Below, one piece after another: positions 53,069-60,979 of a stretch of 64,000 bases of DNA; positions within the stretch are counted from its first letter, which is position 1, and the number at the start of each line of letters is the position of its first letter. Location of the stretch: NCBI RefSeq assembly GCF_021491375.1, contig NZ_JAKEVY010000002.1, positions 62,001 to 126,000 of the forward strand, written 5' to 3'. The DNA is from Flavihumibacter fluminis (GTDB lineage: Bacteria; Bacteroidota; Bacteroidia; Chitinophagales; Chitinophagaceae). Both the position numbers and the translations under genes were made by a program. The notes below the pieces were generated by a model, which had not been told where the DNA came from, ran no database searches, and saw only the letters and a program-made list of their open reading frames with translations.

Positions 53069-54697
53069 ATGAAAAAACACATTTCCCGCTCAGGGGGAAT
53101 GAAGGATCGTTTTACTGGATTGCTGCAATCCGTACGCCAATGGTGGAATTCCCTCTTTAGTGAGGGTGTCAGAGAAAAAATCAACAATTCAAAATTAAGT
53201 TGGGAAGAGCGGCTCCTGCTGATGGGGTTGGTAATCGTTACCGGTATTTTATTGCTGGGCATTAAATTATATGAAAACAACCGGTCTAACCAGCAGGCCT
53301 ATGCGCAATTGGAGGAGTCAAGGACTGTGCTGATGGCAACCATCCAACTGAGAACGGAGATCAATGAACAGCTTCAGGGTAGCCAGGAAAGTCCGGGTTT
53401 ATCAAGGCTGAACGCACAGATTGCTACCATCCGTTCTATAAAAAAACATTCTGCTGTACAGGAGAACCGGCTCAGGACATTGCAAAGCATGTTACTGAGA
53501 TGGCAGGCTTCCGGAAATCAGATCGAAACAGATGAAAAAAATCTGCACAACCTGCTGGATGGAATCATGGCTGAAGAACAGCGGAATCTGGAGGTTCGAA
53601 AAGCTGATGTGGAGTTAGGCAATTCCATTGATCAGCGATTGTATGTGCTGTTGCTGGTAACCCTTGTAATCCTGGTACTTTTTGCCGGTTATGTATTATA
53701 CAAAAACCAGCTGGCTACCCTGCAGGCCAAACAACAACTGGAAAACAACAAACAGATTTTACAATCGATTATTGATAACAGTTCCACGATGGTATATGTG
53801 AAGGACATGCTGGGACGCTTCATCTTCAAGAATAAAAACTTTGAAGAAGTGTTTGGCAAATCCGGTGAACACCTTAATGAAAGCCTGGATGAAACTGTTC
53901 TCGAAACCAGGACCACTACGGAAATCCAGGAAAATCTCCTCATTGATGGTGTTACCTGTCATTTTTATTCCATTCGTTTTCCTTTGCTTAACAAACACAA
54001 CCAGGTGTATGCAACCGCCGGTATTCTGACAGATATCACGGATATGATTCAGAAGCAGGAAGCCAGTAAAGAAAAGGAACTCCTTAAAAATACGTTGGCT
54101 GTTCAGGAATCGGAACGTATGGAAATTGGCATGGAGCTGCATGATAATATTACACAGCTGCTTGCTTCCGCTAAACTGATGCTGGATACGGCGATTCGCC
54201 AAACCACGAGAAAGGATGAGCACCTGGAAAAAGCCCGGGACGATGTGTTCACAGCTATTCATGAAGCAAGGAAATTATCGCATAGCCTGGTGGTACCCGG
54301 ACTCGAAACCGAATCACTCACGGATGCGGTTATGCGCTTATTGGAAAGGCTCAAAACAGATAACCGGCTGATGGTTCAATTGAAACTGGTTTCCAGGAAA
54401 AAAATCAACAGCCTGGAGCCGGGAGTGCGACTGGCACTGTATCGGATTCTACAGGAGCAGGTGAACAATATCATCAAACATGCGGATGCCAGTTCCGTGC
54501 TGGTGGAACTGAGATATGTTTCAGATTCCATCCAGCTGATTGTAGAAGATGATGGTGTTGGATTTGATCCAGATCAATATCGGCCGGGCATTGGTTTGTC
54601 CAATATCAATCGCAGGGTCAGGCACCTGGGAGGCGATTGCCGGGTACACAGCATGCCCGGGGAAGGTTGCCAGTTAAAGATTCTCATTCCACTCTAG
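53069..54697 (+). CDS. NarX/UhpB-type (HisKA_3) sensor histidine kinase
   Basis: 542 residues. Two spans (about 49-67 and 192-210) flank a coiled periplasmic region; then a PAS-like domain (about 230-345) and the HisKA_3 box ERMEIGMELHDNITQLLASAKLML with His358 in ELHD. The ATPase domain has VNNIIKHADASSVLVEL, VEDDGVGFDP and IGLSNINRRVRHLGG. ATG 53069 is used in place of a TTG at 53036. No response regulator is next to it. It stops 53 bases before the permease of the amino-alcohol cluster and may sense its substrate (inference). Confidence 0.9.
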   Translation: MKKHISRSGGMKDRFTGLLQSVRQWWNSLFSEGVREKINNSKLSWEERLLLMGLVIVTGILLLGIKLYENNRSNQQAYAQLEESRTVLMATIQLRTEINEQLQGSQESPGLSRLNAQIATIRSIKKHSAVQENRLRTLQSMLLRWQASGNQIETDEKNLHNLLDGIMAEEQRNLEVRKADVELGNSIDQRLYVLLLVTLVILVLFAGYVLYKNQLATLQAKQQLENNKQILQSIIDNSSTMVYVKDMLGRFIFKNKNFEEVFGKSGEHLNESLDETVLETRTTTEIQENLLIDGVTCHFYSIRFPLLNKHNQVYATAGILTDITDMIQKQEASKEKELLKNTLAVQESERMEIGMELHDNITQLLASAKLMLDTAIRQTTRKDEHLEKARDDVFTAIHEARKLSHSLVVPGLETESLTDAVMRLLERLKTDNRLMVQLKLVSRKKINSLEPGVRLALYRILQEQVNNIIKHADASSVLVELRYVSDSIQLIVEDDGVGFDPDQYRPGIGLSNINRRVRHLGGDCRVHSMPGEGCQLKILIPL

Positions 54698-54750: not shown

Positions 54751-56151
54751 ATGGAGGCCCAAAACCCAACAACAGCCTCCGAGACTCACCTGGCAAGGTC
54801 ACTCGGATCCTTGATGCTATGGGGTCTTGGAGTTGGATATGTTATTTCTGGAATGTACTTCGGTTGGAATCTTGGATTAGCGGAAGGCGGCACACTGGGA
54901 ATGGCAATCGCAACCGGTCTGATTATTCTTCTTTATATCACGTTTACGTTTTCTTATACGGAGCTGGCCTGCTCCATCCCTAAAGCGGGAGGAGTATTTG
55001 ATTATGCCCACCGGGCATTAGGAAAAAAATGGGGCTTTATTGCAGGCATGGCCCAGGTGATTGAGTTTGTATTTGCTCCGCCTGCAATTGCTGCTGCTAT
55101 TGGGGCTTATTTTCATATTTTTCTGCCGGCTGTTCCCGTGGTGGTGATTGCCATCTTTGCCTATTTTATTTTCACCTCGCTGAATATCGTTGGAGTAAAA
55201 GCCGCTGCCAGTTTTGAATTGATCATAACCGTATTTGCGGTATTGGAGTTATTGATTTTTGCCGGCATCACACTGCCTCATTTTGAATGGAGTAATCTCG
55301 AGAAAAATGCATTGCCCCATGGTACCACGGGTATCTGGGCCTGTATTCCATTTGCTATCTGGTTTTTTCTTGGGCTCGAGGGCATTGCGAATGTGGCGGA
55401 GGAAACCATCAATCCGCAGAAGACCATCATTAAAGGATTTGGTTCTGCCTTGCTGACCCTTATCATTCTTTGTATATTGGTTTTTGTTTCGGGAGTTGGA
55501 GTTGCGGGCTGGGAAGCCATCGTGTATGCATCACCGGGAGCACCACCATCTGATTCACCGCTTCCACTGGCAATGGCTAAGGTAACCGGCGACAGTGGCT
55601 GGATTTACCATTTACTGATCACCATCGGTTTGCTGGGACTCATTGCTTCTTTTCATGGTATCATCCTCGCCGCGGGCAGAGCCAGTTTTGAATTCGGCAG
55701 GATGGGTTATTTTATAAAATCCATGGGGCGCATTCACCCCAAATTCAAAACGCCGGCAACAGCTTTGCTGGTGAACATGGGTATCGGGATTCTTGCCCTG
55801 TTAACCGGTGAAACAGGCTCTATTATTACCATTGCCTGTTTTGGTGCGGTAACACTTTATATTCTTTCAATGATTACCTTGTTACGGTTACGTAAACAGG
55901 AGCCGAACCTGGAACGTCCATTTAAAGTTCCGTTTTATCCTTATTTCCCTGTGATCGCTTTGATCATTGGCATTATTTGTATGATTGCCATGATCTCGCT
56001 GTATCCTGTATTAAGCCTGTTCTATTTTGGAATTCTGGCAATTGCCTATGCCTGGTTTTATTTCTTCGTAAAAAATAATGCTGATGAGCAACACCCAATC
56101 ACTTCAGGACCTGTTAACCTACCTGGAGAGTCAATCGATCACAAAGGTTAA
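54751..56151 (+). CDS. Ethanolamine permease, APC superfamily
   Basis: 466 residues, about 12 spans. The N-terminus (SLGSLMLWGLGVGYVISGMYFGWNLGLAEGGTLGMAIATGLI) matches the ethanolamine permease subfamily rather than general amino acid permeases; ELACSIPKAGGVFDYAHRALG and FALEFVFAPPA-like VIEFVFAPPAIAAAIGAYF follow. It would import ethanolamine, probably with protons. A longer frame from 54637 only repeats the kinase region. Its 3' end overlaps the ligase start by about 74 bases, tying the two genes in translation. Confidence 0.9.
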   Translation: MEAQNPTTASETHLARSLGSLMLWGLGVGYVISGMYFGWNLGLAEGGTLGMAIATGLIILLYITFTFSYTELACSIPKAGGVFDYAHRALGKKWGFIAGMAQVIEFVFAPPAIAAAIGAYFHIFLPAVPVVVIAIFAYFIFTSLNIVGVKAAASFELIITVFAVLELLIFAGITLPHFEWSNLEKNALPHGTTGIWACIPFAIWFFLGLEGIANVAEETINPQKTIIKGFGSALLTLIILCILVFVSGVGVAGWEAIVYASPGAPPSDSPLPLAMAKVTGDSGWIYHLLITIGLLGLIASFHGIILAAGRASFEFGRMGYFIKSMGRIHPKFKTPATALLVNMGIGILALLTGETGSIITIACFGAVTLYILSMITLLRLRKQEPNLERPFKVPFYPYFPVIALIIGIICMIAMISLYPVLSLFYFGILAIAYAWFYFFVKNNADEQHPITSGPVNLPGESIDHKG

Positions 56152-57445
56152 GATCGCCGTTACGGATATGGATGGTATCCTGCGCGGTAAACTGATTAGC
56201 TGGGATAAATTCAAATCAGTTGTACAATCCGGTTTTGGATTTTGCAATGTGGTGTTTGGATGGGATTCCAGTGATGTAGCCTACGACAATGTGCAGTACA
56301 CAGGATGGCACAGCGGTTATCCGGATGCACAGGCCACTATTGATATTTCCACCTTCCGCCAAATTCCCTGGGAGCAGAATGGTGCCTTCTTCCTGGCTGA
56401 CTTCACCAATGAAAAGGGCTACAGCCTTGATATTTGTCCGCGTAGCCTGCTGAAAAAAATTGATGCTGAAGCGAAAGCCATGGGTTTTTATCCTTCTTTC
56501 AGCCAGGAGTTTGAATGGTTTAATTACAAGCGCCCATCTAAGATCCGGGATTTTCAATCCCTTGAACCAATCACTCAGGGCATGTTCGGTTATTCCATAC
56601 TGAGAGCTTCCCAGCAGTCCGATTTTTGCCAGGACCTCTTTGATCAACTGACCAAATTTGGTGTGCCTATTGAAGGCTTGCATACGGAAACGGGTCCGGG
56701 TGTTTATGAAGCAGCGGTATTGTATGGGCATATCCTGGAAGCTGCCGACCGGGCGGTTTTATTTAAATCAGGCGTGAAAGAAATCGCGCACCGGCATGGT
56801 TACCTGGCTACTTTTATGGCTAAAGTGAGTGAAACCTTGCCAGGTTGCAGTGGCCACGTGCACCAGAGTTTATGGACACTGGATAAATCAGAGAACCTGT
56901 TTTACAGCAGCAGTTCGGCTAACCATATCAGTGGGTTAATGGAAAGTTATATGGCCGGACAACTCTACTGTCTTCCCTATATATTGCCCATGTTGGCACC
57001 AACGATCAACAGTTACAAACGATTGGTAGAAGGGGCCTGGGCACCCACTACCTTAACCTGGGCAGTAGATAACCGGACCACCGCATTGCGCGCATTGCCG
57101 GGCAGTCCGTATTCAACGCGACTCGAAACCAGGGTAGTAGGTTCTGACAGCAATCCCTACCTGGCGATGGCTGCCTGCCTGGCTGCCGGTTTATATGGAA
57201 TAAAACACAAAATGAAACTGGAGATTCCGGAGACTGTCGGTAACGGATATGCGAATAAGGTACATGGTATATTGCCATCCAACCTGCATGAAGCTACCCA
57301 AGCCATGAAAAACTCACCGGTTGCCAGGGAATTATTTGGAGATGCCTTCACCGATCATTTCACCGCATCACGTGAGTGGGAGTGGAGAGCATTTGCCAAA
57401 GTAGTAACCAATTGGGAAACACAACGATATTTAGAAATCATTTAA
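56078..57445 (+). CDS. Glutamine-synthetase-like gamma-glutamylamine ligase
   Basis: 455 residues, GlnA-like fold. ATP and glutamate residues are kept: EFEWF (144-148), HTETGPGVYE (202-211), KEIAHRHGYLATFMAK (234-249), GHVHQSL (259-265), NSYKRLVEGAWAPTTLTWAVDNRT and RLETRVVGSDSNPYLAMAA. The ammonium loop DGSSIxGF of true GlnA is replaced by GWDSSDVAYD (61-70), as expected if an amine rather than ammonia is the acceptor. In this cluster the product would be gamma-glutamylethanolamide, as for Streptomyces GlnA4. A second ATG six bases later (56084) is equally possible. No PII-type adenylylation motif was sought. Confidence 0.88.
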   Translation: MLMSNTQSLQDLLTYLESQSITKVKIAVTDMDGILRGKLISWDKFKSVVQSGFGFCNVVFGWDSSDVAYDNVQYTGWHSGYPDAQATIDISTFRQIPWEQNGAFFLADFTNEKGYSLDICPRSLLKKIDAEAKAMGFYPSFSQEFEWFNYKRPSKIRDFQSLEPITQGMFGYSILRASQQSDFCQDLFDQLTKFGVPIEGLHTETGPGVYEAAVLYGHILEAADRAVLFKSGVKEIAHRHGYLATFMAKVSETLPGCSGHVHQSLWTLDKSENLFYSSSSANHISGLMESYMAGQLYCLPYILPMLAPTINSYKRLVEGAWAPTTLTWAVDNRTTALRALPGSPYSTRLETRVVGSDSNPYLAMAACLAAGLYGIKHKMKLEIPETVGNGYANKVHGILPSNLHEATQAMKNSPVARELFGDAFTDHFTASREWEWRAFAKVVTNWETQRYLEII

Positions 57446-57454
57446 TAGCAGTTT

Positions 57455-58606
57455 ATGACAAGTTTTGATGTAGTACGTCAGTATAATTTTCCAACTACCA
57501 TTCGTTTTGGTGCAGGGGCATCCGAAGAATTGGGGCCTCATTTGAAAGGAGCCGGATTTAGTCGCCCTTTAGTAGTTACAGACCCTACCGTGCGGGATTT
57601 ACCTTTCTTTAAAAAGATCCTTGCTGATCTGGAGCGACTGGGATTAAAGCCGGATGTTTTTTCCAACATTCATAAAAACCCGGTGAAGTCGGATGTGCTG
57701 GCCGGCAAGCAGGCATTCCAGGATGCCGGTGCAGATTGTATTGTAGGTATCGGTGGCGGTGCCGGTATGGATGTGGCAAGAGCTATTACATTAAGCATTC
57801 ATCACCACCGCGATTTGTTTGATTACGATGACCTGATTGGTGGTGATAAATATGTAACAGAAGAAGTGCCTTATTTCGTGACGCTGCCCACCACCAGTGG
57901 AACAGGAAGTGAAGTAGGTCGCAGTGCGATTATCTCTGAAGATGATACACACCGGAAGCGCATTCTCTTTTCTCCCAAGTTGCTGGCGAAGATGGTATTT
58001 GCTGATCCCGTACTGACCATGGATCTGCCACCCTTTGTGACAGCCGCTACAGGTATGGATGCACTGACGCACAATATGGAAGCCTACATTGCGAAAGGAT
58101 TTCATCCCATGTGTGAAGGCATCGCCTTGCAGGGTATGACCCTGATTAGTGAATCAATTGTGCAGGCAACCACTGCTCCGGACCTGGCCTCGCGCTCCAA
58201 AATGATGATCGCATCTTTGATGGGCGCTGTTGCTTTTCAGAAAGGATTGGGCATTGTGCACTCCCTGGCTCATCCGCTTTCCTCTTTGCTGGATACGCAC
58301 CACGGATTGGCGAATGCGGTGAATCTTCCCTATGGAATGGATTTTAATGCACCCGGACTGGAACCTGCTTTCCAGCGAATGGCACAGGCAATGAATGTTT
58401 CTGGCGGAGATGCAGCTTCTCTGGTATCTTATCTGTTTGATCTGAACGAACAGTTAGGCTTACCCGAAAACCTGGCTGCAATCGGGGTTAAAGAAGAACA
58501 TCTGGAAACCCTGGCCAGCCTGGCGGAAGCAGATTTTTGTCATCCCAACAACCCCAAACCGGTAAGCAGGGAAGATTTCCTGGCGATTTATAAAAAAGCA
58601 CTGTAG
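57455..58606 (+). CDS. Iron-containing alcohol dehydrogenase
   Basis: 383 residues, group III ADH. Dinucleotide region GIGGGAGMDVARAITL, TLPTTSGTGSEVGRSAII, and metal ligands in the MDALTHNMEAY and GIVHSLAHPLSSLLDTHHGLANAVNLP segments. In this context it would oxidise the hydroxyl of gamma-glutamylethanolamide to an aldehyde with NAD+ (inference). Nine bases after the ligase, three before the hydrolase. Confidence 0.92.
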   Translation: MTSFDVVRQYNFPTTIRFGAGASEELGPHLKGAGFSRPLVVTDPTVRDLPFFKKILADLERLGLKPDVFSNIHKNPVKSDVLAGKQAFQDAGADCIVGIGGGAGMDVARAITLSIHHHRDLFDYDDLIGGDKYVTEEVPYFVTLPTTSGTGSEVGRSAIISEDDTHRKRILFSPKLLAKMVFADPVLTMDLPPFVTAATGMDALTHNMEAYIAKGFHPMCEGIALQGMTLISESIVQATTAPDLASRSKMMIASLMGAVAFQKGLGIVHSLAHPLSSLLDTHHGLANAVNLPYGMDFNAPGLEPAFQRMAQAMNVSGGDAASLVSYLFDLNEQLGLPENLAAIGVKEEHLETLASLAEADFCHPNNPKPVSREDFLAIYKKAL

Positions 58607-58609
58607 GAG

Positions 58610-59317
58610 ATGAAAAAGAAAATCGGGATCAGTTTCTCTCGTACCAATTTCCAGAATTACTGGGATTGGTTTACGGAAGCAGATCTTGGCCAAGACCTGG
58701 AGCTGGTGTTGTTATCGTTTGAAACACCCGACCATAAGGCGGTTAAGCAATGCGATGCCTATGTATTGACAGGTGGTGTAGATATTGATCCTGTTTATTA
58801 CCAGGGTGCTGCGGTATATCCAAATCAACCTGATACCTATCAACCGGATCGTGATCAGTTTGAAGCTGCCATTTACCGGCACGCCAAAGAAAAACAGGCA
58901 CCAGTACTCGCAATTTGCAGGGGTATGCAATTGGTTCACACCCTGGAAGGAGGTAAGCTGATCCAGGACCTGGGGGAGCAGAATCGCCGGCATAAAAAAG
59001 ATACCGACGAGGATAAACAACACACGGTACAACTGCAACCCGGAAGCCGGCTGGCAGCATGGGCAGCGGAATCAGTTGGACAGGTGAACAGCGCGCATCA
59101 CCAGGCATTGGATAAGGAAACGCTTTCAGGTAATTGGCGAATCAGCGCACTTGATGATACAGGCCTGATTGAAGCAATTGAGTGGAAAGATGAAAAGGAT
59201 CAGCCATTTCTGATTGGAGTGCAATGGCATCCGGAAAGAATGCTGAACAAAGAAAAGAATCCATTATCACAAGCCATTAAAGAACATTTTATACAAACTA
59301 TCCGAGAACAATCATGA
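58610..59317 (+). CDS. Peptidase C26 gamma-glutamyl hydrolase (PuuD type)
   Basis: 235 residues, class I glutamine-amidotransferase-like fold. Nucleophile Cys103 in LAICRGMQLVH; His207 and Glu209 in GVQWHPER complete the triad; YVLTGGVDIDPVYY is the family's oxyanion-side motif and VNSAHHQAL is typical. It would release the glutamyl group at the end of the route and return glutamate to the ligase. Its stop overlaps the aldehyde dehydrogenase start by four bases (ATGA). Confidence 0.92.
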   Translation: MKKKIGISFSRTNFQNYWDWFTEADLGQDLELVLLSFETPDHKAVKQCDAYVLTGGVDIDPVYYQGAAVYPNQPDTYQPDRDQFEAAIYRHAKEKQAPVLAICRGMQLVHTLEGGKLIQDLGEQNRRHKKDTDEDKQHTVQLQPGSRLAAWAAESVGQVNSAHHQALDKETLSGNWRISALDDTGLIEAIEWKDEKDQPFLIGVQWHPERMLNKEKNPLSQAIKEHFIQTIREQS

Positions 59318-60687
59318 GCACATTTAACGTTATAAATCCGGCTACTGAAGAAGTACTGGCAACGCTGGATGAAGACAACCAGCAAACCATTCAGGAAAAA
59401 TATAACCTGGTAAAAAAGGGACAGTCAGCCTGGGCGGAAGTTCCATTGACAGAACGAATCAATTGCATCCGCCGATTTGACCAGGCTTTAGGAGAGCAAA
59501 TCGAAAAGCTGGCAGGAACCCTGAGTGATGAAGTTGGTAAGCCCATTCAGCAGGCCAGAAATGAAATCAATGGTGCAAGAGGGCGAATCGCTTTCTTCCT
59601 CAATAATTCGGAGAAATGGTTGCAGGATGAGTGGATGGTACTGGATGGAGCTACCAAAGAGAGAATCAGTTATGAACCCCTGGGTATAATCGCCAATATT
59701 TCTGCGTGGAATTATCCATATCTGGTAGGTGTGAATGTGTTTATTCCTGCTTTGATTGGAGGGAACGCAGTGCTGTATAAGCCATCTGAGTTTTCCAGCT
59801 TAACCGGACTCGCCATTCGTGATTTGCTCTATCAGTCGGGTATACCCGAAAATGTATTCCAGGTAGTATTGGGCGGCGGACTGGTGGGAAGTTATCTGCT
59901 GGATCTTCCTCTGAATGGATATTATTTCACGGGAAGCAATCGCACCGGGAAAATCATTGCATCCAAAGTTGCGGAGAAAATGGTTCCCTGTCAGTTGGAA
60001 CTGGGTGGCAAGGATCCTTTGTATGTTACGGATGAAGTGGCAGATATCAACCAGGTGGCTGGTGCTGCATTGGAAGGAGTGGTATACAACAATGGTCAGA
60101 GTTGTTGTGCGGTGGAAAGAATCTACGTGCACGAAAAAGTGTACGATGATTTCCTGAAGTCATTTACTGAGCAGGCGAAGGCCTTAAAAATCGGAAATCC
60201 AAAAGAGGAAGGAATTGATATCGGTCCGCTTACCCGAAAAGAGCAACTGGCATTTATCCTTGATCAGATCCAGGACGCGCAAAACAAAGGAGCGGAATTA
60301 ATAGCAGGTGGTTATCGCCTTCAGCAACCGGGCTATTATATGGTGCCGGCTGTTCTTTCCAACGTGAATCATAACATGAGTGTGATGAAGGAAGAAAGTT
60401 TCGGTCCGGTTATTGGCATTCAGAAAGTAAGTAATGATTCGGAGGCTATTGATTTAATGAAAGATACCAGTTATGGATTAACAGCGGCTGTATATACTTC
60501 CAATGAAGAAAGAGCAGAAAAAATCCTAAGGCAAATGAATACCGGAACGGTATACTGGAATTGCTGCGACCGTGTGAGTGCAAATCTTCCCTGGTCAGGA
60601 AGAAAGGACTCGGGTCTGGGTTCTACTTTATCTTACAGTGGGATACGTGCCTTTGTTCAACCCAAAGCCTGGCATCTCAGAAAATAA
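59314..60687 (+). CDS. Aldehyde dehydrogenase of the amino-alcohol cluster
   Basis: 457 residues. Catalytic Cys264 in NNGQSCCAVERI, with a second Cys next to it; Glu229 in LELGGKDP; cofactor contacts in NISAWNYPYLVGVN and TGSNRTGKIIA. It belongs to the same superfamily as the enzyme at 42544 but differs clearly. In context it would oxidise gamma-glutamyl aminoacetaldehyde to gamma-glutamylglycine. Last gene of the cluster, converging on the RRM gene 13 bases away. Confidence 0.92.
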   Translation: MSTFNVINPATEEVLATLDEDNQQTIQEKYNLVKKGQSAWAEVPLTERINCIRRFDQALGEQIEKLAGTLSDEVGKPIQQARNEINGARGRIAFFLNNSEKWLQDEWMVLDGATKERISYEPLGIIANISAWNYPYLVGVNVFIPALIGGNAVLYKPSEFSSLTGLAIRDLLYQSGIPENVFQVVLGGGLVGSYLLDLPLNGYYFTGSNRTGKIIASKVAEKMVPCQLELGGKDPLYVTDEVADINQVAGAALEGVVYNNGQSCCAVERIYVHEKVYDDFLKSFTEQAKALKIGNPKEEGIDIGPLTRKEQLAFILDQIQDAQNKGAELIAGGYRLQQPGYYMVPAVLSNVNHNMSVMKEESFGPVIGIQKVSNDSEAIDLMKDTSYGLTAAVYTSNEERAEKILRQMNTGTVYWNCCDRVSANLPWSGRKDSGLGSTLSYSGIRAFVQPKAWHLRK

Positions 60688-60700
60688 ATTGCATAAAGAA

Positions 60701-60979
60701 TCAATAGAAGTTGCGGCCGCTTGACTTGCTACGGTCTTCGCGTGGCTTGGCTTCATTTACTTTGATGGTTCTTCCTTCCATGGAAACACCATTCAATTCT
60801 TTGATCGCGTTTTCAGCTGCAGTAGAATTTGGCATGTCTACAAATCCGAAACCGCGACTTCTATTGGTAACTTTGTCGATGATTACGTTTACAGAGGAAA
60901 CTTCTCCATAGGGAGTGAATAACTTCTCTAATTCTTCGTTCTGAACCCCAAATCCGAGGTTGGATACATAAATGTTCAT
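60701..60979 (-). CDS. RRM-domain RNA-binding protein
   Basis: 92 residues, one RNA recognition motif: RNP2 NIYVSNL (2-8), RNP1 RSRGFGFVDM (about 41-50), then a short Lys/Arg/Ser tail. Such small RRM proteins are frequent in Bacteroidota and cyanobacteria and are thought to bind single-stranded RNA, some in cold response. Monocistronic with a leader of over 100 bases. Confidence 0.93.
   Translation of the reverse strand: MNIYVSNLGFGVQNEELEKLFTPYGEVSSVNVIIDKVTNRSRGFGFVDMPNSTAAENAIKELNGVSMEGRTIKVNEAKPREDRSKSSGRNFY

Follow-up and report, generated by a model that had tools for sequence, protein, structure and literature searches.

A five-gene cluster of Flavihumibacter fluminis predicted to degrade ethanolamine by gamma-glutamylation

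Ethanolamine from membrane lipids is a common source of nitrogen and carbon, and its use is usually tied to the B12-dependent enzyme EutBC. A chemistry that passes through gamma-glutamylated intermediates has already been published for C. salexigens, Agrobacterium, Phaeobacter and Streptomyces. A published table lists PF00120, PF00465, PF00171 and PF05013 as the C. salexigens families (PMC9397018). Its genes and those of Agrobacterium are called demonstrated in a passage of one paper (PMC10132767), and the C. salexigens pathway is called an in silico prediction in a passage of another (PMC6529630). As described in the former, the Phaeobacter pathway was proposed from proteins that rise on phosphatidylethanolamine and from ethanolamine binding by EtoX (PMC10132767). 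The gamma-glutamylethanolamide synthetase GlnA4 of S. coelicolor is backed by an assay and a deletion, with the later steps predicted (PMC6529630). Here we analyze a five-gene cluster (54751-60687, + strand) in a 64,000-nt stretch of Flavihumibacter fluminis contig NZ_JAKEVY010000002.1, called the window below. It encodes an EAT-type permease, a glutamine synthetase (GS)-like ligase, an iron-containing alcohol dehydrogenase (Fe-ADH), a C26 hydrolase and an aldehyde dehydrogenase (ALDH), and is probably (at roughly 0.8) a cobalamin-independent operon for ethanolamine catabolism.

The ETAGA (eto) systems of C. salexigens, Agrobacterium tumefaciens C58 and Phaeobacter sp. MED193, in the published passages that describe them, share with the window a PF00120 ligase, an Fe-ADH, an ALDH, a gamma-glutamylglycine hydrolase and an ethanolamine transporter; three of the four families tabulated for C. 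salexigens recur (PF00120, PF00465, PF00171). However, ETAGA operons use a TRAP transporter (Phaeobacter, Ruegeria) and a PF05013 hydrolase where the window has EAT and C26, and the two ligases, 34% identical, belong to different clades. In the Streptomyces GlnA4 cluster, a ligase and an ALDH are accompanied by a glutamine amidotransferase according to a figure legend, while the discussion names SCO1615, of the formylglutamate amidohydrolase family; clusters outside S. coelicolor M145 also include, like the window, a putative permease for ethanolamine, but a short-chain dehydrogenase (SDR) stands in the place of the Fe-ADH (PMC6529630). Two Bacteroidota look-alikes of that cluster (L150 and L151; L numbers denote compared loci) have ligases of the ETAGA clade, in a comparison that did not include SCO1613 itself. 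The Ipu loci, with the annotated IpuC of Paenarthrobacter aurescens TC1, also combine a GS-like ligase (37-39% identical) with nearby amidotransferase and ALDH genes but contain P450, ferredoxin, reductase and SDR genes that are absent from the window cluster. In two of them (L117 and L118) nothing matches the window Fe-ADH or EAT, though an amino acid permease and an alcohol dehydrogenase are annotated in L118. The Puu pathway of E. coli follows the same gamma-glutamylation logic with the same ligase, hydrolase and ALDH superfamilies, yet employs an oxidase and a transaminase instead of an alcohol dehydrogenase, and the window proteins do not reach the PuuA and PuuD cut-offs. Finally, short eut operons with EAT have the same permease family beside a B12-dependent ammonia lyase, whereas the window genome has no EutB match. 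A reading made earlier from the sequence alone (the sequence-only reading) had proposed that a complete operon of this kind in Bacteroidota may be undescribed. No paper on one was found in the open-licence literature, but the Fe-ADH/ALDH route is published in the passages cited (PMC10132767; PMC9397018), and the novelty was to that extent overstated. What is new is the separate ligase clade, the C26 hydrolase in place of a formylglutamate amidohydrolase and EAT in place of TRAP, in Bacteroidota.

In the proposed pathway, the permease would import ethanolamine, and the ligase, using ATP and glutamate, would make gamma-glutamylethanolamide. The Fe-ADH would oxidize the hydroxyl of this compound to an aldehyde, which the ALDH would convert to gamma-glutamylglycine, and the C26 hydrolase would cut the latter into glutamate, to be recycled, and glycine. 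Glycine could enter the glycine cleavage system, whose P-protein has a match in the genome, so that a likely outlet for it exists. Gene context, above all the company of the permease, which passes the curated EAT model TIGR00908, predicts ethanolamine as the best substrate. In an even sample of 395 Bacteroidota genomes (G numbers), with permease and ligase matches counted at E up to 1e-50, 20 genomes have a permease match. The permease lies beside a window-type ligase in eight and beside EutB in seven (G154, G269, G304, G308, G415, G439 and G446; 42-46% identical to the window permease), the open reading frame (ORF) after EutB being taken for EutC by position alone. In two (G119 and G213) it closes a cluster in which a ligase of 33-35% identity stands with SDR, ALDH and class I amidotransferase genes, and in three (G245, G270 and G423) neither EutB nor either ligase type stands alongside. 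The G213 permease is 68% identical to that of the window, and in a tree rooted only at its midpoint three permeases from SDR/ALDH/amidotransferase ligase clusters sit among the window-type permeases; group counts from this tree are disregarded, as one group label wrongly covered L170 (E. coli PuuP), L173 (Rhizobium) and L175 (Thermomicrobium). Thus, two ligase clades are paired with permeases of a single lineage, whose more distant kin lie beside EutB. Ethanolamine best fits all three kinds of company, that is, the window ligase, the ETAGA-clade ligase (2/395) and EutB (7/395), and the gamma-glutamylation pathway advanced in the sequence-only reading is still the best explanation.

The rest of the genome (4.71 Mb, 41 contigs, 99.99% complete) is consistent with a B12-independent route. 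The earlier claim that eutBC and microcompartment genes are lacking held for EutB (PF06751) and the bacterial microcompartment (BMC) shell (PF00936), neither of which has a match genome-wide; EutC was not searched for. Formylglutamate amidohydrolase (PF05013) has no match genome-wide either, and C26 (PF07722) occupies its place in the cluster. As controls, E. coli was positive in the EutB and BMC searches, and among 14 genomes EutB was found in one, BMC in two and PF05013 in one.

Conservation was assessed in the best 80 of 285 ligase relatives in the GTDB contigs examined, of which the closest named locus is that of Flavihumibacter cheonanensis (ligase 98% identical). All four partners lie near the ligase in 36 of these 80, three in 10, two in 12, one in 16 and none in 6; individually, EAT is present in 57, Fe-ADH in 63, C26 in 45 and ALDH in 49. 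Fifty loci have sufficient flanking sequence on either side, and all four partners are present in 28 of them. These counts err on the low side, because the ORF caller misses partners seen by tblastn (for example C26 in L059, L060, L073 and L085). The order EAT-ligase-FeADH-C26-ALDH recurs in metagenome-assembled genomes (MAGs) titled Cytophagaceae (L096, L101 and L104), and 8 of the 395 genomes in the phylum sample (G000, G008, G018, G146, G181, G205, G217 and G443) have permease, ligase and Fe-ADH side by side. Since the order recurs in Bacteroidota with ligases 61-65% identical, the cluster is not a chance assembly; the families are indeed found in one operon elsewhere in the phylum and are conserved together. 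In one MAG ligase clade (L074, L079-L081, L083 and L084) the Fe-ADH is convergent, with no EAT, C26 or ALDH match nearby (the flank of L083 is short).

The ligase scores below the curated cut-offs of the GlnA, GSIII and PuuA models (209.5 of 429.15 bits for GlnA TIGR00653, 210.2 of 469.6 for TIGR03105 and 201 of 650 for the PuuA equivalog). Its identity is 44% with a proteobacterial group and falls to 37-39% with annotated IpuC, 34% with ETAGA-type ligases and 27-29% with PuuA, so GlnA4-type ligases and PuuA, the model kin chosen in the sequence-only reading, are not its nearest relatives. In an alignment of 117 sequences including GlnA and PuuA (GSI residue numbering), the window ligase keeps the six GSI metal ligands, G265, R321, R339, R344, R359 and H271, whereas the glutamate-binding N264 is P (A in PuuA). 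W replaces the flap glutamate E327, the residue that closes the ammonium site, in the window ligase and each of the 46 other operon-type rows, but also in 15/15 kinase/HAD rows (see below) and 6/9 ETAGA-clade rows; the published passage on PauA7 gives W there as well. The Y179 position is F in operon-type and kinase/HAD rows (15/15 of the latter), E in 9/9 ETAGA-clade rows and H or Y in four IpuC-clade rows. At D50 the window has D and 9/46 operon-type relatives have E or Q, in a gappy part of the alignment where the model is of low confidence (56-71). The earlier statement that the ammonium loop is missing is therefore supported at E327 and Y179, but D50 cannot be aligned safely. Together, the residues speak against ammonia as substrate but do not separate operon-type from kinase/HAD ligases. 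The predicted structure (mean predicted local distance difference test, pLDDT, 82.7) confirms no more than the GS fold and does not tell the substrate. In a quick tree with SH-aLRT support only, the window ligase falls outside the ETAGA clade and the IpuC rows form another clade; operon-type (47) and kinase/HAD (15) rows each need one label change, with support 94, rows with fewer partners having carried no label. GlnA and PuuA are on very long branches, where long-branch joins are possible, so the deeper order is unsure.

The Fe-ADH has as its nearest curated model 4-hydroxybutyrate dehydrogenase (331 of 500 bits) and shares 38-39% identity with its counterparts in the ETAGA operons of Ruegeria and S. 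meliloti. Its motifs GMDALTH and VHSLAH are present; the third metal-ligand pattern has no match as written, and THHG aligns with LQHG of a solved relative. The C26 hydrolase has CRG at residue 103 and HPE at residue 207, aligned to solved relatives, and reaches 73.2 of 266 bits against the PuuD equivalog model. The ALDH has the motif GQSC at 261 of the protein and is 34-35% identical to the ALDHs of ETAGA-type operons.

Several points weigh against the ethanolamine assignment, whose substrates and steps are predicted from sequence and context. The strongest caution comes from a sister branch of the ligase. Ligase matches occur in 61 of the 395 genomes, at 32-37% identity in 20 and at least 52% in 41, and the 41 split fully into 8 operon-type ligases and 33 that are followed by a 347-residue kinase-like protein and then a HAD-IIA phosphatase (three ORFs further on in G304). 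The stretch examined at these 33 loci holds no match to the permease, Fe-ADH or ALDH. With 33 of 41 close homologues in another setting, the ligase by itself is no marker of ethanolamine use; since four genomes with a kinase/HAD-type ligase (G154, G269, G304 and G415) have EAT beside EutB elsewhere, the ligase family has another role too. As W at E327 and F at Y179 are common to the kinase/HAD ligases, these residues do not single out ethanolamine. By sequence, the ligase also lies outside the ETAGA clade (34% identity), with IpuC as its nearest named relative. By the ORF-based count, 22 of the 50 full-flank loci are without at least one partner. Finally, EutB is absent from the eight operon genomes (0/8), but as it is found in only 12 of the 395 sampled, this says little; mutual exclusion of EutB and the operon was likewise rejected as a finding, the test having no power.

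The kinase/HAD loci include L111:10004-13458, L155, L157-L169 and L190-L200, and many of the 33 genomes belong to one family (f43); some of these loci have a 337-residue short GS upstream. The 347-residue protein matches no Pfam family over cut-off, and its kinship with APH kinases is drawn from weak Pfam matches (3 of 13, best E 0.0081) and a motif read by eye. No PDB entry matches it, even at E values up to 1, and a single-sequence fold of the L111 protein gave no usable model (mean pLDDT 36.4).

Three other explanations were considered. The one that survives best, though unlikely, holds that the same logic serves another amino alcohol or short amine, such as alaninol (2-amino-1-propanol), 3-aminopropanol or a mixture, and yields alanine or beta-alanine, not glycine. 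IpuC acts in isopropylamine breakdown by way of alaninol, and the ligase resembles IpuC (37-39%) more than ETAGA ligases (34%), but the IpuC-clade loci examined carry P450 and ferredoxin genes, of which there are none among the window cluster genes. The permease also scores above the ethanolamine cut-off and has relatives beside EutB, although the operon enzymes may be broad, and EutBC can also take 2-aminopropanol, which weakens the EutB argument and makes that link compatible with an alaninol-type substrate. A Puu-like route from putrescine to gamma-aminobutyric acid is very improbable: despite the superfamilies held in common with PuuA, PuuD and PuuC, the five genes include no PuuB-like oxidase or PuuE-like transaminase, the Fe-ADH has no step there, the permease is 22% identical to PuuP, and the ligase and hydrolase fall far below the PuuA and PuuD scores, so that this route is rejected on curated cut-offs and partner genes. 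Least probable of all is an ordinary or back-up glutamine synthetase with incidental neighbours, which would account for the GS catalytic residues, most of them retained, but is rejected by the GlnA score, the recurring partners, the flap W (window and 46/46 operon-type relatives) and a second PF00120 match, the only other one in the genome, in a 733-aa frame, presumably the length of GSIII, by which glutamine synthesis is probably covered.

If ethanolamine is indeed the substrate, genomes without EutB could be scored as likely ethanolamine users. We would give even odds to a broader proposal, in which Bacteroidota have their own ligase clade for ethanolamine gamma-glutamylation, one permease lineage is paired with this clade, with an ETAGA-clade ligase or (for more distant permeases) with EutB, so that the first step was swapped and the transporter kept, and the kinase/HAD sister branch represents a second, undescribed gamma-glutamylation pathway. 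The ligase swap beside one permease lineage is a natural test of amine-specificity residues among GS-like ligases; the contrasting kinase/HAD locus cautions that homology is not enough to annotate the ligase.

The more distant ligases are found in varied loci. Eleven of the 20 sampled genomes whose ligases are 32-37% identical were inspected. SDR, ALDH and amidotransferase occur in six (G119, G174, G195, G213, G226 and G388), ALDH and Fe-ADH in three (G234, G365 and G404) and ALDH only in one (G270), and one has neither (G245). The G213 ligase matches 5dm3 (E 9.8e-113), which is Csal_0679 of C. salexigens, the species from which this ethanolamine route was described, and presumably the ligase of its ethanolamine operon. 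It also matches 11zs (E 1.6e-135), an entry from Brucella named glutamine synthetase; G119 and G213 ligases group with those of Ruegeria and S. meliloti in the ligase tree. In G365 and G404 (one genus; L201 and L208), the ligase is 78% and the Fe-ADH 81% identical to Ruegeria's, and these Roseobacter-like genes were probably acquired horizontally. A second link to the ethanolamine route comes from Gammaproteobacteria. Among the nearest ligases outside the phylum (44%), those of Photobacterium and Legionella lytica have ALDH and Fe-ADH genes after them, and Photobacterium has an EAT-like permease (35%) upstream too. In Legionella, the ALDH and Fe-ADH share 51-59% identity with those of the Bacteroidota ETAGA-type loci L201-L204 and L208 and 36-39% with the window's own; the ALDH is only 31% identical to that of L206. 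Other relatives at 42-44% (Burkholderia, Pseudorhizobium, Rhizobium and a Rhodobacteraceae) have different neighbours, including annotated spermidine/putrescine ABC transporters at two loci, so the wider ligase group is mixed.

Table 1. Positions of the cluster genes and an upstream neighbour, with predicted roles
Feature	Position	Strand	Evidence or remark
EAT-type APC permease, predicted ethanolamine importer	54751..56151	+	TIGR00908 439 bits vs cut-off 381.75; relatives beside EutB
GS-like gamma-glutamyl-amine ligase, predicted gamma-glutamylethanolamide synthetase	56078..57445	+	PF00120 308 bits
Fe-ADH, predicted gamma-glutamylethanolamide dehydrogenase	57455..58606	+	PF00465, PF25137
C26 hydrolase, class I amidotransferase fold, predicted gamma-glutamylglycine hydrolase	58610..59317	+	PF07722 151 bits
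ALDH, predicted gamma-glutamyl-aminoacetaldehyde dehydrogenase	59314..60687	+	PF00171 424 bits
PAS/HisKA_3 sensor histidine kinase, possible regulator, outside pathway parts	53069..54697	+	53 bases upstream of permease

The five families named in the sequence-only reading were recovered by hidden Markov model searches, and its layout agrees with the ORF coordinates (Table 1): permease and ligase overlap by 74 bases (68 if the ligase starts at its second ATG, 56084), gaps of 9 and 3 bases precede Fe-ADH and C26, and C26 and ALDH overlap by 4. The permease frame is already open from a TTG at 54637. Beyond the histidine kinase lies a minus-strand transporter-like ORF (read by eye), not a response regulator. 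Of the best 80 loci, 74 have no match to the kinase at the score shown; it is directly upstream in L033-L036 and L038 as well, and 3.4 kb upstream in L037. Downstream, a small RRM RNA-binding protein (60701-60979), above the NF058537 cut-off, is convergent with the operon.

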